Shown here: positions 39,225 to 45,265 of the stretch, piece after piece
How the letters are laid out: each line of letters starts with the position of its first letter
Position numbering within the stretch: position 1 is the stretch's first letter
Assembly (NCBI RefSeq): GCF_011038965.1
Contig: NZ_JAAKEB010000016.1
Coordinates: forward strand, 1 to 45,277
Reading direction: 5' to 3'
DNA length: 45,277 nucleotides
Source: Adlercreutzia sp. ZJ141
GTDB lineage: Bacteria; Actinomycetota; Coriobacteriia; Coriobacteriales; Eggerthellaceae
Notes under the pieces: model-generated
The model's database searches: none
Told to the model about the DNA's origin: nothing
The model's input: only the letters and a program-made list of their open reading frames with translations
Position numbers and translations under genes: made by a program

Positions 39225-39453
39225 GATAACTTTCCCTTCCCAGCCGAACTCGCTATCACTCCCACGAGCGTTTTACGGGCAATCCCCAGTGAAACGCCGC
39301 TATTGTAGCGCACGGAAACACAGCAGTTGTCAAAGACTGTAGTGTAAGCAAAATAGTACTTTACTTAATACTAGTTGCACGCGTCATGCAGATTCCACTT
39401 TAAGAGCCTGACTACGTACAGGAACTTCATACCACTTACGTCCATGCTGACAG

Positions 39454-39603
39454 TTTCTCTTTATCACTGAAAATCATCTTGGGGTTCATGACGTTGATTC
39501 AAAAATGCCCGCGAGCTTTCTATCAGGTATTTTTCAAATTCTTGCAACACAAAGGGCTTGATTTTTCTTTATCACCTCTTTATCATCTCTTTATCAACTC
39601 ACG
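39454..39603. repeat. Left direct repeat flanking the Schlafen-type gene, with three 11-bp iterons
   Basis: Starts TTTCTCTTTATCACTGAAAA and ends with CTTTATCANCT three times in tandem (TTTATCA at 39568, 39579 and 39590). It matches 41122-41256 over almost its whole length with scattered differences and one gap. The gene starts 18 bp further. Confidence 0.75.
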
Positions 39604-39620
39604 TATTCCAAGGAGTCGAA

Positions 39621-41090
39621 ATGCCCAACCAGCACTCAATGGATCTTGTTTATTCCCTCGTTGGTTATCCGGCCGAAACCGAATGGCTTGAATTCAAAGA
39701 AAACAACAAGGATCCTCAGCGGACAGGCCGTGATATCTCAGCCCTTGCCAATGCCGCTGCTTTTTGCGGACACGATTACGGCTATAAAATATGGGGCGTT
39801 CGCGACTCCGATCATGCACTGGTTGGAACCACTTTCGACTATCTTCGAGCCAAAGGAGAAGGAAATCAAGATCTGCTGGTTTGGCTCACCCGCCACCTTA
39901 CTCCTAATGCAAACTACGAGTTCAGCCAGGTTACCGACGATACCAACAGGCGCTTTGTCATCCTGAAAGTGAGAGCAGCATCGGGACAGCCTGTACGCTT
40001 CAACAACGCCGCCTACATTCGTGAGGGAAACGCAACCACATGCCTTGCTCTCGGATCAGCTAAAGAAGAAGAGTTATGGCGCAGACTTCAACGCGCAACG
40101 TTTGAATTCCAAACTGCCATCGAAAACATCCCAGCAAAAGACGTGCGCGAGCTTCTTGCCGTTGACGCGTATTTCGATTTGCTCGGACTCAAACAACCCA
40201 CCGACTTAGCATCGGCACTCATCCCCTTTGCAGAACAAGAACTTATCAAGTACCAAGATGATGGAAACTACGCGATAACTAATTTAGGTGCTCTCCTTCT
40301 TGCAAAGAAGCTGTCCGGCTTCCCAGGGTTGAGAAAACGCCCGCTTCGAGTAATCCGATTTGAGGGAAAAAGCAACCTCAACATCATCGCCGACCGCACC
40401 TTTGACGAAGGCTATGCACTGGTAATTCCTCAAGCTGAAAGCTACATTATGGCCTCATTACCCGCAAAAGAGATCTCTGAGGGAGCTTTCCGAAAAATCC
40501 AATACGCATATCCGCAAGCTGCCATTCGCGAACTGCTCATTAACGCTATCGTCCATCAAGACGCAACCGTTACCACCGCTGGCCCACTAGTAAAGATATA
40601 CGATAACCGCATCGAGTTTAGTAATCCCGGATCGTGCCTCATCCCCACTGACCGCATTCTCAATGCCCAACCAAAAACTCGAAATAACGGACTGGTGCGC
40701 ATGCTGCGTCAAATGGATCTTTGTGAAGAAGGAGGCACTGGGTGGGACAGAGCGGTTGAAGCGTGCGAGAGTCGATTTATGCCCGCTCCAAAAATTATCA
40801 GCACCGAAGACCTTGGAACCACCGTTTCTCTCTATTCGGATTCGGCTTTCGATCGCATGACAAAAACCGAGCGCATGGAAGCCCTCTACTGGCACGCCTG
40901 CCTTATGTACGCACAAGACGAATCAATGGGGAATCAGAGCCTTCGCAGCCGCTTTGGTCTGAACAATGAAAGAAAGAATACCTTGGCTATCTCACGGCTA
41001 ATCAGAGAAGCATGCGAGAAAGAGCTTATCAAAGAAGAAGATGAAAACGCTGGAACTAAGTTCAAACGATATATCCCTCATTGGGCATAA
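39621..41090 (+). CDS. Schlafen/AlbA_2-type ATP-binding protein
   Basis: 489 residues; ATG at 39621 has AAGGAG 6 nt upstream. The N-terminal ~130 residues are an AlbA_2/Schlafen domain: ETEWLEFKENNKD...ISALANAAAFCGHDYGYKIWGVRD, then VRFNNAAYIREGNATT. The middle is a GHKL-like ATPase (IRELLINAIVHQD, the N-box Asn; RIEFSNPG; NNGLVRMLRQMDLCEEGGTGWDRA). The C-terminus is a winged-helix-like region. Family members include regulators and suspected defence proteins. It is flanked by direct repeats, as in a moving cassette, and GC is lower than in neighbours. Confidence 0.87.
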   Translation: MPNQHSMDLVYSLVGYPAETEWLEFKENNKDPQRTGRDISALANAAAFCGHDYGYKIWGVRDSDHALVGTTFDYLRAKGEGNQDLLVWLTRHLTPNANYEFSQVTDDTNRRFVILKVRAASGQPVRFNNAAYIREGNATTCLALGSAKEEELWRRLQRATFEFQTAIENIPAKDVRELLAVDAYFDLLGLKQPTDLASALIPFAEQELIKYQDDGNYAITNLGALLLAKKLSGFPGLRKRPLRVIRFEGKSNLNIIADRTFDEGYALVIPQAESYIMASLPAKEISEGAFRKIQYAYPQAAIRELLINAIVHQDATVTTAGPLVKIYDNRIEFSNPGSCLIPTDRILNAQPKTRNNGLVRMLRQMDLCEEGGTGWDRAVEACESRFMPAPKIISTEDLGTTVSLYSDSAFDRMTKTERMEALYWHACLMYAQDESMGNQSLRSRFGLNNERKNTLAISRLIREACEKELIKEEDENAGTKFKRYIPHWA

Positions 41091-41121
41091 AGTAATGGAA
41101 GATAGCTTGGCGATCGGGCAA

Positions 41122-41256
41122 TTTCTCTTTATCACTGAAAATCATTTTGGGCTTCATGACATTGACTCAAAAATGCCTGCAGGCCTTCTATCAGGCGTTT
41201 TGCAAATTGTCGTGATATAATGGACGTCGTTTTTCTTTATCATCTCTTTATCAACG
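41122..41256. repeat. Right direct repeat flanking the Schlafen-type gene, with two iterons
   Basis: Begins TTTCTCTTTATCACTGAAAA at 41122 and has TTTATCA at 41236 and 41247 (11-bp period). It also contains TGA-TATAAT (about 41213-41221), an extended -10 absent from the left copy. No gene follows it. Confidence 0.75.
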
Positions 41257-42700: not shown

Positions 42701-43921
42701 TCAGTCTTCAGTCTCCACTAGCACGGAAACATAGTCGCTGAAGTGTTCAGTAAAATGTTCGAGCTGCTCCTCTGACTCGAAGCGAAAGAACAGCACACCC
42801 AGCGCCTTGTTTGCGTTGGAGAACGCATCGACCACATCTCCCGCCTCAACATACATGACCTCGCGATAAAAGGTCTCCTTGGCAACTCCAGAAAGCTCGT
42901 AGCCCCGATAGCGCCCCTTGTCTGTAGAATGCAGAACGAACGTCGCATTGAGCACCCGCCCGAACTCCCAGTCGATAAAACCCGGATTCTCCCCCATAGC
43001 GCATCGGATATTGGCCTTGACTAGATCGACACCACTCGCATCGGACAGCTGAACAGGAATAAGATTCCCCCCTGCGCGGCTCCCCAACTCCAAAACATAC
43101 GGCTCATTATCGGCACCGTAGATTACCTCAACATTGAGCTCCCCAAAGCGAATACCCAGCGAGGTGACAAGCTCTTGTAGAACCATTTTTGTTCGACGAT
43201 ATTGCTCGAAGGTGAGCCCTGATGGCATCCGCTCGCCCACGGGAACAAGGGGTGATCCGCAATCGCGTAAACACGACATAAGCCCCCAGAACCTCACGAT
43301 GCCGTCCACGACGAAAATGTCACCGCCGACAACGCGGGGAAACCCATAACTAATATACTCCTCGACGATAACGATGCCGTTTCGACCATAGGATCGGGCA
43401 TAATCGATCGCTTCGCTTAACTTCGAAAGATTGTGGAGTACCGTGACACCTTTCGATCCCGAAGAGTCGGTGGGCTTCACGACCACTGGCAGACGGAGAG
43501 CCTCAATGTGGCGTCTCACATGGCAGACATCCTCCTCAGCGTCGAAGCTGCAGGACTTCGGACAGGGAAACCCATTTTGCGTCAAATGCTCCCTGAACAG
43601 GCTCTTCGAACTCATTATCTCGACCGTCTCAAGAGGATTGGACGGCAAGCCGAGCTGTTCGGCAACGTAGGCCGCCGTCGGAGAGGCAGGATCGGATGAG
43701 TACGCGATCACTCCGTCTACGCGCTCCTTGCGCGCAACCCCCAGAACCGCATCCCTGTCAGTGGTGCTGACCAGATAAAACACGTCAGCGTAATGCTGAC
43801 CTGGGTTGTCGGTGAGATAGTCACAGAGAACCGTGCGATACCCGCACGACTTCGCCACCTCAATGGCAACAACCTGCTGTCGAGATCCGCCAAGCAGCAG
43901 CAGTGTCTTTCTGTCATCCAA
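42701..43921 (-). CDS. ATP-grasp ligase
   Basis: 406 residues; TTG at 43921 with AGAGG 6 nt upstream. N-terminal Rossmann part (TLLLLGGSRQQVVAIEVAKSCGYRTVLCDY, a PurK/CarB-like start), then the ATP-grasp domain: LPVVVKPTDSSGSKGVTVL (ATP Lys), IVEEYISYGFPRVVGGDIFV, FGELNVEVIYGADNEPYVLELGSRAGGNLIPVQL (Mg-binding Glu/Asn). Such enzymes join a carboxylate to an amine; they are common in capsule, LPS and peptide-antibiotic loci. Here it neighbours a GT2 gene and another ATP-grasp. Substrate unknown. Confidence 0.88.
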   Translation of the reverse strand: MDDRKTLLLLGGSRQQVVAIEVAKSCGYRTVLCDYLTDNPGQHYADVFYLVSTTDRDAVLGVARKERVDGVIAYSSDPASPTAAYVAEQLGLPSNPLETVEIMSSKSLFREHLTQNGFPCPKSCSFDAEEDVCHVRRHIEALRLPVVVKPTDSSGSKGVTVLHNLSKLSEAIDYARSYGRNGIVIVEEYISYGFPRVVGGDIFVVDGIVRFWGLMSCLRDCGSPLVPVGERMPSGLTFEQYRRTKMVLQELVTSLGIRFGELNVEVIYGADNEPYVLELGSRAGGNLIPVQLSDASGVDLVKANIRCAMGENPGFIDWEFGRVLNATFVLHSTDKGRYRGYELSGVAKETFYREVMYVEAGDVVDAFSNANKALGVLFFRFESEEQLEHFTEHFSDYVSVLVETED

Positions 43922-44119: not shown

Positions 44120-45265
44120 ATGTACGATAAAAATACTCTTTCGGCGCTTCTCGCCGACGGCTTCACCGAGCGAATGGCTGCAGAGTTCCTCGAGATGAAA
44201 GAAGCCGAGATAGCCAGCGGGATGTTCGATCCCACATACCTCTCATGGGCGCACGAGAACGGCTTCTTTGCCGAATCCGCTTGTGCCTATGGGCTGAGCG
44301 CAGAAAACATCGGAGATTACCTTTCCGACTACGACTACTGGAAGCTCTGGCCGCTCAACGACTGGCAGCGAATTTGGATAAATGACAAGCTCACACTCAA
44401 CGCTATGCTCCTGGGCACCGATATGCAGCACTATCTTCCCGAGTACTACTACTACACTACCCCCCGAGGCTTCCTTCCCTTGCAGGACAGCAAAGGAGTA
44501 GCCGACGTTTCAGGACTCATCGCTATCCTCAAGGAGAAGGGTGAAGTAGCCGCCAAACCCTGCAACGGAACACTTGCCTGCGGATTCCACAAACTGGAGT
44601 TCGTCGATGGCGCCTTCATTTTTGACGGAAAGACCGTGTCCGAAGACGAGCTCGTGCGGTCACTCCAAGAGATGAAGAACTATGTTTTCACCGAGTTCCT
44701 ACACCCGGCAAAGCCCTTGGCGAAGATCAGCCCGCGTATCCACACCATTCGAGCCATTGTCCTTAACGAAAGCGGCGTTAACCCAGAACTCGTCGCCGCC
44801 TACATCCGCTTCGCCGTGGGGGGAGACGAAGATGGGCACAAGCCTAACTATGTGCCGCCCACCAACAGCAATATCTTCTCCTACAACGCCAAGATTAACC
44901 TGGATACAGGCCACATCTCGAACGGCACGATCGTCTACGCCAACAAGGTCATCAATGCCCCCCAACACCCCACGAGCAATGCCCTCGTCGATCTGACCAT
45001 CGACTGCTGGTCAGAGGTGGTTGATGTCATGAAACGCATGAGTATGAAGTTCGGTGCATGCGAGTATCTTGGGTTTGACATCGGAATAACCGACAAGGGT
45101 CCAAAGATCATGGAGATCAACTCAAACTCAGGCATCAAATACATCCAGGTGTTCCAGCCGCTGCTCACCGACGAGCGCACGGCGTCGTACTACAAGAGCC
45201 GCATCGCAGAAATCAACGCTCTTACCGCCGAGCAAAAAGCTCACCGAAACAACATCTGGCACTAA
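44120..45265 (+). CDS. Sugar-transfer-associated ATP-grasp protein
   Basis: 381 residues; GAAAGG 6 nt before the ATG at 44120. The ATP-grasp region: WPLNDWQRIWINDKLTLNAML, EVAAKPCNGTLACGFHKLEF (ATP Lys), YVFTEFLHPAKPLAKISPRIHTIRAIVL, YLGFDIGITDKGPKIMEINSNSGIKYIQ (metal-binding Glu and Asn). This matches the ATPgrasp_ST family of cell-surface glycopolymer loci. The first ~80 residues are a helical lead-in. Divergent from the other ATP-grasp with ~200 bp between. The cluster probably continues to the right. Confidence 0.88.
   Translation: MYDKNTLSALLADGFTERMAAEFLEMKEAEIASGMFDPTYLSWAHENGFFAESACAYGLSAENIGDYLSDYDYWKLWPLNDWQRIWINDKLTLNAMLLGTDMQHYLPEYYYYTTPRGFLPLQDSKGVADVSGLIAILKEKGEVAAKPCNGTLACGFHKLEFVDGAFIFDGKTVSEDELVRSLQEMKNYVFTEFLHPAKPLAKISPRIHTIRAIVLNESGVNPELVAAYIRFAVGGDEDGHKPNYVPPTNSNIFSYNAKINLDTGHISNGTIVYANKVINAPQHPTSNALVDLTIDCWSEVVDVMKRMSMKFGACEYLGFDIGITDKGPKIMEINSNSGIKYIQVFQPLLTDERTASYYKSRIAEINALTAEQKAHRNNIWH

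Follow-up and report, generated by a model that had tools for sequence, protein, structure and literature searches.

The window analysed here, a stretch of 45,277 nt from contig NZ_JAAKEB010000016.1 of Adlercreutzia sp. ZJ141, contains a gene for a protein with an AlbA_2 nuclease fold, a GHKL ATPase and a C-terminal winged helix, bracketed by a pair of direct repeats, hereafter labelled R1 (upstream) and R2 (downstream), or R where either copy is meant. R1 and R2 (39451–39585 versus 41119–41253, in coordinates of the window) are 82% identical across 135 nt in the same orientation, and both ends of each copy carry short iterons with a period of 11 bp. Each copy has one TTTATCA near its 5′ end (39460 in R1, 41128 in R2), with AAAATCA one period further on by direct reading of the sequence, and closes with a TTTATCA cluster of three units in R1 (39568, 39579 and 39590) and two in R2 (41236 and 41247). 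An earlier note on this DNA had described direct repeats of about 140 bp around the AlbA_2 gene, with three left and two right TTTATCA units spaced by about one helical turn, and the description holds.

The window has the iteron doublet CTTTATCANCTCTTTATCA at three positions (39567, 39578 and 41235), where 0.01 would be expected, and the R–gene–R pattern as a whole is not a chance one, because it recurs at 25 other loci. With R2 as query, the 2.29-Mb genome yields two copies in total, R1 and R2 themselves (E = 3.6e-33 for the second), and no further one. In full, R1 spans 39451–39598 (plus strand), running from the 5′ iteron doublet (39460 and 39471) through a spacer to the three 3′ iterons, and R2 (41119–41255, plus strand) begins 28 nt past the stop codon. 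The end repeats are direct, with no inverted pair at the cassette ends, and no second gene or gene remnant was found 3′ of R2 in the window. Rfam returned nothing at the gathering score for the window and nine related loci; folding of single R copies as RNA gave GC-rich hairpins in many of them, with no common structure by eye.

The gene runs from 39621 to 41090 on the plus strand and encodes 489 amino acids. Its start is most likely ATG 39621, which has a ribosome-binding-like AAGGAG (39610–39615, plus strand) 5 nt on its 5′ side; TTG 39558, the start given by a mechanical list of open reading frames (ORFs), was set aside. A promoter-like TTGATT-17-TATCAT (39558–39586, plus strand), recognised by consensus match alone, overlaps the first two 3′ iterons of R1; the region has three such sites against 2.0 expected from shuffling, and the R1 site does not stand above that expectation.

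Domain architecture of the cassette protein

The protein belongs to the SLFN_AlbA_2/HATPase_c_4 (COG2865-type) family, with both domains above their Pfam gathering cut-offs: SLFN_AlbA_2 at residues 19–139 (39675–40037, plus strand; E = 2.5e-12, 47.8 bits against a cut-off of 25.3) and HATPase_c_4 (E = 1.7e-15, 57.2 bits against 26), which corresponds to the GHKL/histidine-kinase-type ATPase domain at model residues 230–408 (40308–40844, plus strand). The predicted structure adds a winged-helix domain at residues 412–489 (40854–41087, plus strand), a candidate reader of the iterons. No recombinase-like Pfam domain was found in the gene, and between the repeats, where it is the sole gene, there is no DDE, HUH, tyrosine or serine transposase, no reverse transcriptase and no integrase.

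An AlphaFold2 model built on 36 relatives has a predicted local distance difference test score of 89. Its best whole-chain match among solved structures is DIP2311 of Corynebacterium diphtheriae (PDB 3lmm; Foldseek E = 1.5e-19), to which VIA aligns 389 residues with Z = 22.1 and a root-mean-square deviation of 19.8, the high deviation suggesting that the modelled domains are alike and their arrangement different. Taken separately, residues 1–160 match the AlbA_2 domain chains of SAMD9 (7ksp and 9o0d; Z = 10.1 and 9.8), residues 230–408 match histidine-kinase-type ATPase domains and residues 412–489 match winged helices. Conservation of E19, E24 and D62 is at least 90% across the 36 relatives, and the three are spaced like E205, E210 and D248 of rat SLFN13, which are required for RNA cleavage (PMC5862951). 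From this conservation and the modelled fold, a Schlafen-type nuclease activity may be expected.

Repeat pairs across the order

Relatives of the gene were sought by profile in 395 genomes of the order, representing 123 genera, among which the genus of the window has one genome; loci, genomes and genera are hereafter given L, G and g numbers. The gene is patchily distributed, with relatives in 50 of the genomes and 28 of the genera. Its tree requires 6 family-label changes, where shuffling gives 14.8, so that descent is mostly family-wise, with some transfer. A clear direct R pair of about 110–210 bp flanks the gene at 26 loci, window included, directly before the gene and directly past its stop codon, around proteins down to about 40% identity. 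Related gut bacteria carry the cassette at several unrelated chromosomal sites.

All R copies share one plan, a short iteron cluster, a spacer of about 80–110 bp and a longer iteron cluster, with a period of 11 bp, and the letters of the iterons vary by lineage (TTTATCA, TAGTTATC/TAGTTGCC, ACTTATCA, AATTATCA, ATTTGCT and others). For 48 of the 52 copies the closest R is the partner at the same locus, the four exceptions coming from one pair of near-identical genomes. At a g61 site common to three species, left flanks are 83–93% identical, and R copies are 64–81% identical between species and 84–98% within them. The two R copies of a locus are, as these identities show, kept alike by homogenisation within each genome, since partners resemble one another and species differ despite similar flanks. 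R1 has more 3′ iterons than R2 at 20 of the 26 loci and never fewer.

At locus L070 (genome G149), a third R lies about 500 bp beyond R2, within the region 186–900 nt past the stop codon; R2 and this third copy are each followed by similar DNA that contains GTTGTTAC/GTAACAAC hairpins.

Single-repeat sites in two genera

The joined flanks of L051, a locus of genus g48, were searched against 31 genomes of that genus. The site holds R–gene–R in G155 and G165 and exactly one R, with the gene absent, in nine genomes (G170, G148, G166, G169, G156, G144, G158, G157 and G168); in some further congeners R is absent too. Full-length R matches occur at this site and nowhere else in the genus. In the tree of the flanks, G155 is sister to the solo-R genome G170 (99/97); G165 belongs to a different clade, together with the solo-R genomes G156, G144 and G168. 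The tree of the repeats gives the same associations, the solo R of G170 grouping with G155 (88/90) and those of G144 and G156 with G165 (97/94). Because the solo R copies cluster with the R copies of their hosts' relatives, R is old, resident and inherited at this site, and the state of the gene changed at least twice.

A second such site is found in genus g96, where G122 has the gene (L064). G130 and G121 have one R and no gene there; their left flank matches at 96% identity as far as the start of R1, and their right flank at about 80% from its own first base. G131 has one R and the right flank, again with the gene absent. Exact products of recombination to a single repeat are thus present at two sites in two genera. 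Two other comparisons gave no junction: at the g61 site, G303 and G306 lack R and the gene, with intergenic regions too divergent to define one, and the flanks of L082 are not adjacent in its congeners.

These sites bear on the earlier note, which had proposed insertion or excision of a cassette through recombination of its repeats and had suggested looking for gene-free sites with a single repeat. Such sites turned up in nine genomes of g48 and three of g96, and together with the 25 other loci they exclude the contrary picture of strains all alike and repeats found nowhere else. The repeat-to-repeat step thus has support, at sites of relatives and not at that of the window; insertion by way of the repeats is hypothetical.

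Other sequences also occupy the L051-homologous site. L147 (G164) has a different iteron array in place of R, four units of approximately GACGGTTATGCGCA spaced by about 20–22 bp, and L152 (G160) has an insert of about 1 kb holding another ORF, whose product resembles a KilA/ORF6N-type protein. From the latter insert, the site looks like a hot spot. Separately, CCTGCGGTTCTTCTCG, a short motif within R, recurs at other intergenic places in g48 genomes (L195, L204 and L205 among them) and is possibly a host regulatory motif.

Insertion with host duplications

L058 lies between two genes that, from reading their translations, we take to be tsaE and tsaB. In all seven congeners examined (7/7), the tsaE–tsaB site has neither R nor the gene, and at L058 86 bp of the end of tsaE is present on both sides of the cassette, outside R, in the order duplication–R–gene–R–duplication. 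Comparison of these sites shows that the cassette of L058 entered a place that had no R before and that 86 bp of host DNA is duplicated there. The host duplication of L057 is 232 bp long and lies outside the iteron ends; that of L080 measures 36 bp and is more distant. Left–right flank scores are 226 for L057, 84 for L058 and 30 for L080, and none of 692 cross-locus pairs scores above 18; no flanking duplication above chance was found at the other R-paired loci, window included. L059, which lacks R2, has a 49-bp host duplication.

A conserved element past the stop codon

Outside the Coriobacteriia, relatives with 35–41% identity are found on proteobacterial plasmids, in a Burkholderia phage, in Streptococcus satellite phages and on the Escherichia coli chromosome. 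None of these non-Coriobacteriia relatives has a matching upstream repeat, and many have an iteron element directly past the stop codon. On a Providencia plasmid (L220) the element reads TTTGCTTGATCGTTGCTTGACT, then AATTTGCTTGATCGTTGCTTGATT about 78 bp on; in Aliarcobacter (L221), gene and element lie between a DNA methyltransferase gene and hsdS. A fixed test applied to 15 non-Coriobacteriia loci gave scores of at least 20 in the 160 bp past the stop codon at 7 of them and at none upstream, background windows reaching 18 at most. The cut-off of 20 was picked after examples had been seen, so that the result supports the pattern without being blind, and looser by-eye pairs at several loci are left uncounted. 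Repeated at periods of 8 to 14, the test gave matches at a period of 11 only. Several loci within the Coriobacteriia (L083, L088, L090 and L093) likewise have the downstream element and no R pair. The downstream element is the conserved part of the system; Coriobacteriia have it on the upstream side of the gene as well, and there it can serve as a control region.

Two distant loci deserve description in their own right. On Citrobacter plasmid pCFR-0b27 (L229), a shorter and very distant AlbA_2-type gene (22% identity) lies in a type I restriction operon with trlF, and the same kind of iteron element follows it, before hsdR. The E. coli relative (L228 and L231; 4 of 5,426 genomes) adjoins retron St85 in an integrase-bearing element beside setC.

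Proposed mechanism and alternatives

We consider it probable that the locus is a single-gene cassette of the form R–gene–R, in which the repeats are the binding and control sites of the encoded protein and recombination between them deletes the gene, leaving a solo R. R would be the cis-acting element of the AlbA_2–GHKL–winged-helix protein, built of two clusters of direct iterons phased at 11 bp and about 80–110 bp apart, and the protein probably binds these iterons itself. Such binding fits the winged helix of the predicted structure, the lineage-specific iterons held in common within a locus and the presence of the element past the genes of distant relatives. R1, with its extra iterons and promoter-like site, probably controls the gene. 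Recombination between R1 and R2 would remove the gene cleanly and leave one R with unchanged outer junctions, as the two sites in relatives suggest. On this account the R pair is what makes the gene excisable, and the simplest enzyme for the step is host RecA. Fold, active-site conservation and neighbours make a defence-type effector, with a Schlafen/SAMD9-like nuclease domain, the most likely identity of the product; a defence role is suggested because restriction–modification genes and a retron lie nearby, the domain is SAMD9-like and the gene is gained and lost at shared sites.

Several observations weigh against this interpretation. Host RecA acting on direct repeats of 110–210 bp could explain every solo R with no activity of the protein, and the solo sites fit either loss from R–gene–R or gain at a resident R. 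Flanking host duplications occur in three loci (plus L059). Many relatives, on proteobacterial plasmids and in some Coriobacteriia, have the downstream element only, and R pairs are therefore not needed by the gene. PADLOC models gave weak partial matches (best E = 0.00035).

These points shade into an account with little short of an even chance of being right, in which a defence or regulatory gene has a necessary binding element on each side and no mobility of its own, with RecA deleting it now and then and gene conversion homogenising the repeats. Solo R sites and homogenised pairs require nothing more, the gene has no recombinase-like Pfam domain, and the downstream-only elements of other phyla suggest a regulatory role rather than one in mobility. 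Such an account leaves unexplained how a site free of R gained the cassette together with an 86-bp host duplication, and the occurrence of R on both sides of the gene at many unrelated sites.

It is also conceivable, although we think it unlikely, that the solo R is a resident target, at which the gene arrives as a circle with one R and enters by R × R recombination in the manner of integron cassettes and phages. R1 and R2 would then correspond to attL and attR, and the extra iterons would in every case face the gene. The vertical inheritance of R in g48, with the gene in two separate clades only, would follow, as would the extra gene-proximal R1 iterons at 20 of 26 loci, and a unit of gene plus R is the proteobacterial arrangement. 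Against it, the genes of G155 and G165 are 79% identical, close to the 83% of their left flanks, a similarity in divergence that favours inheritance plus loss; the L058 site has no R in relatives; and no recombinase is encoded. Also unlikely, in our judgement, is that the Schlafen-fold nuclease, GHKL clamp ATPase and winged helix together form the element's own recombinase and hence a new minimal mobile element, which would assemble on the 11-bp iterons of its two terminal direct repeats, cut or join them, leave a solo repeat behind when it exits and produce long duplications of host DNA where it enters. The duplicated control region with a lost second gene that the earlier note had offered as its other option is very improbable, for although R1 and R2 share their body and promoter-like end, no gene remnant was found past R2 at any of the 26 loci, the homology between R1 and R2 ends at the iterons, ahead of the ribosome-binding site, and solo R copies with unchanged outer junctions are not predicted by it.

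Comparison with known systems

In behaviour only, the preferred R–gene–R cassette resembles long terminal repeat retroelements, which have long direct end repeats that are alike within an element and different between elements, and whose exact loss leaves one repeat. As opposed to these, it is prokaryotic and has neither reverse transcriptase nor DDE integrase, and its host duplications are 36–232 bp or absent, whereas those of the retroelements are 4–6 bp. With integron cassettes it shares a single ORF with a recombinogenic element just past the stop codon, and gain and loss at a resident site; the integron integrase is not in the cassette, and R consists of direct 11-bp iterons in contrast to the folded attC. 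Centromeres of the parC type with 11-bp iterons are similar in having two direct-repeat clusters that surround a promoter; the cassette is chromosomal, has a single gene and lacks partition genes. Long host duplications of variable length, 8–514 bp, are also made by IS1549/IS1634 (PMC2266710); the DDE transposase and terminal inverted repeats of those elements are both missing from the cassette.

At the level of the protein, COG2865-type ATP-binding proteins such as DIP2311 (3lmm) have the identical chain of domains and are the best structural match, with no repeats or mobility described for them in the literature searched. The AlbA_2 nuclease domains of the antiviral Schlafen proteins and of SAMD9 share the fold and the spacing of the three acidic residues of SLFN13; the cassette protein differs in having AlbA_2 fused to a GHKL ATPase and a winged helix. 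In open-access PMC, we found no literature tying AlbA_2 or Schlafen-like bacterial genes to direct repeats or mobility. The TAACTGA heptamer repeats (PMC4679880) were considered and rejected, as they precede many unrelated genes and are not placed around an AlbA_2 gene.

Beyond the cassette, the window contains two ATP-grasp proteins, one of a sugar-transfer-associated type (42701–43921, minus strand, and 44120–45265, plus strand), near a DUF2304 protein and a glycosyltransferase; this region is probably a cell-surface polysaccharide locus.

Three-domain bacterial Schlafen-like proteins are widespread and mostly annotated simply as 'ATP-binding protein'. The present analysis links them with a conserved DNA element whose iterons are lineage-specific; it lies past the stop codon in several phyla, and in Coriobacteriia it flanks the gene on either side. 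Should it prove true that the protein drives recombination, it would represent a recombinase of a new kind. The natural R–gene–R and solo-R states at the same sites provide a testable handle on the recognition target of the protein and on gene turnover in gut bacteria.
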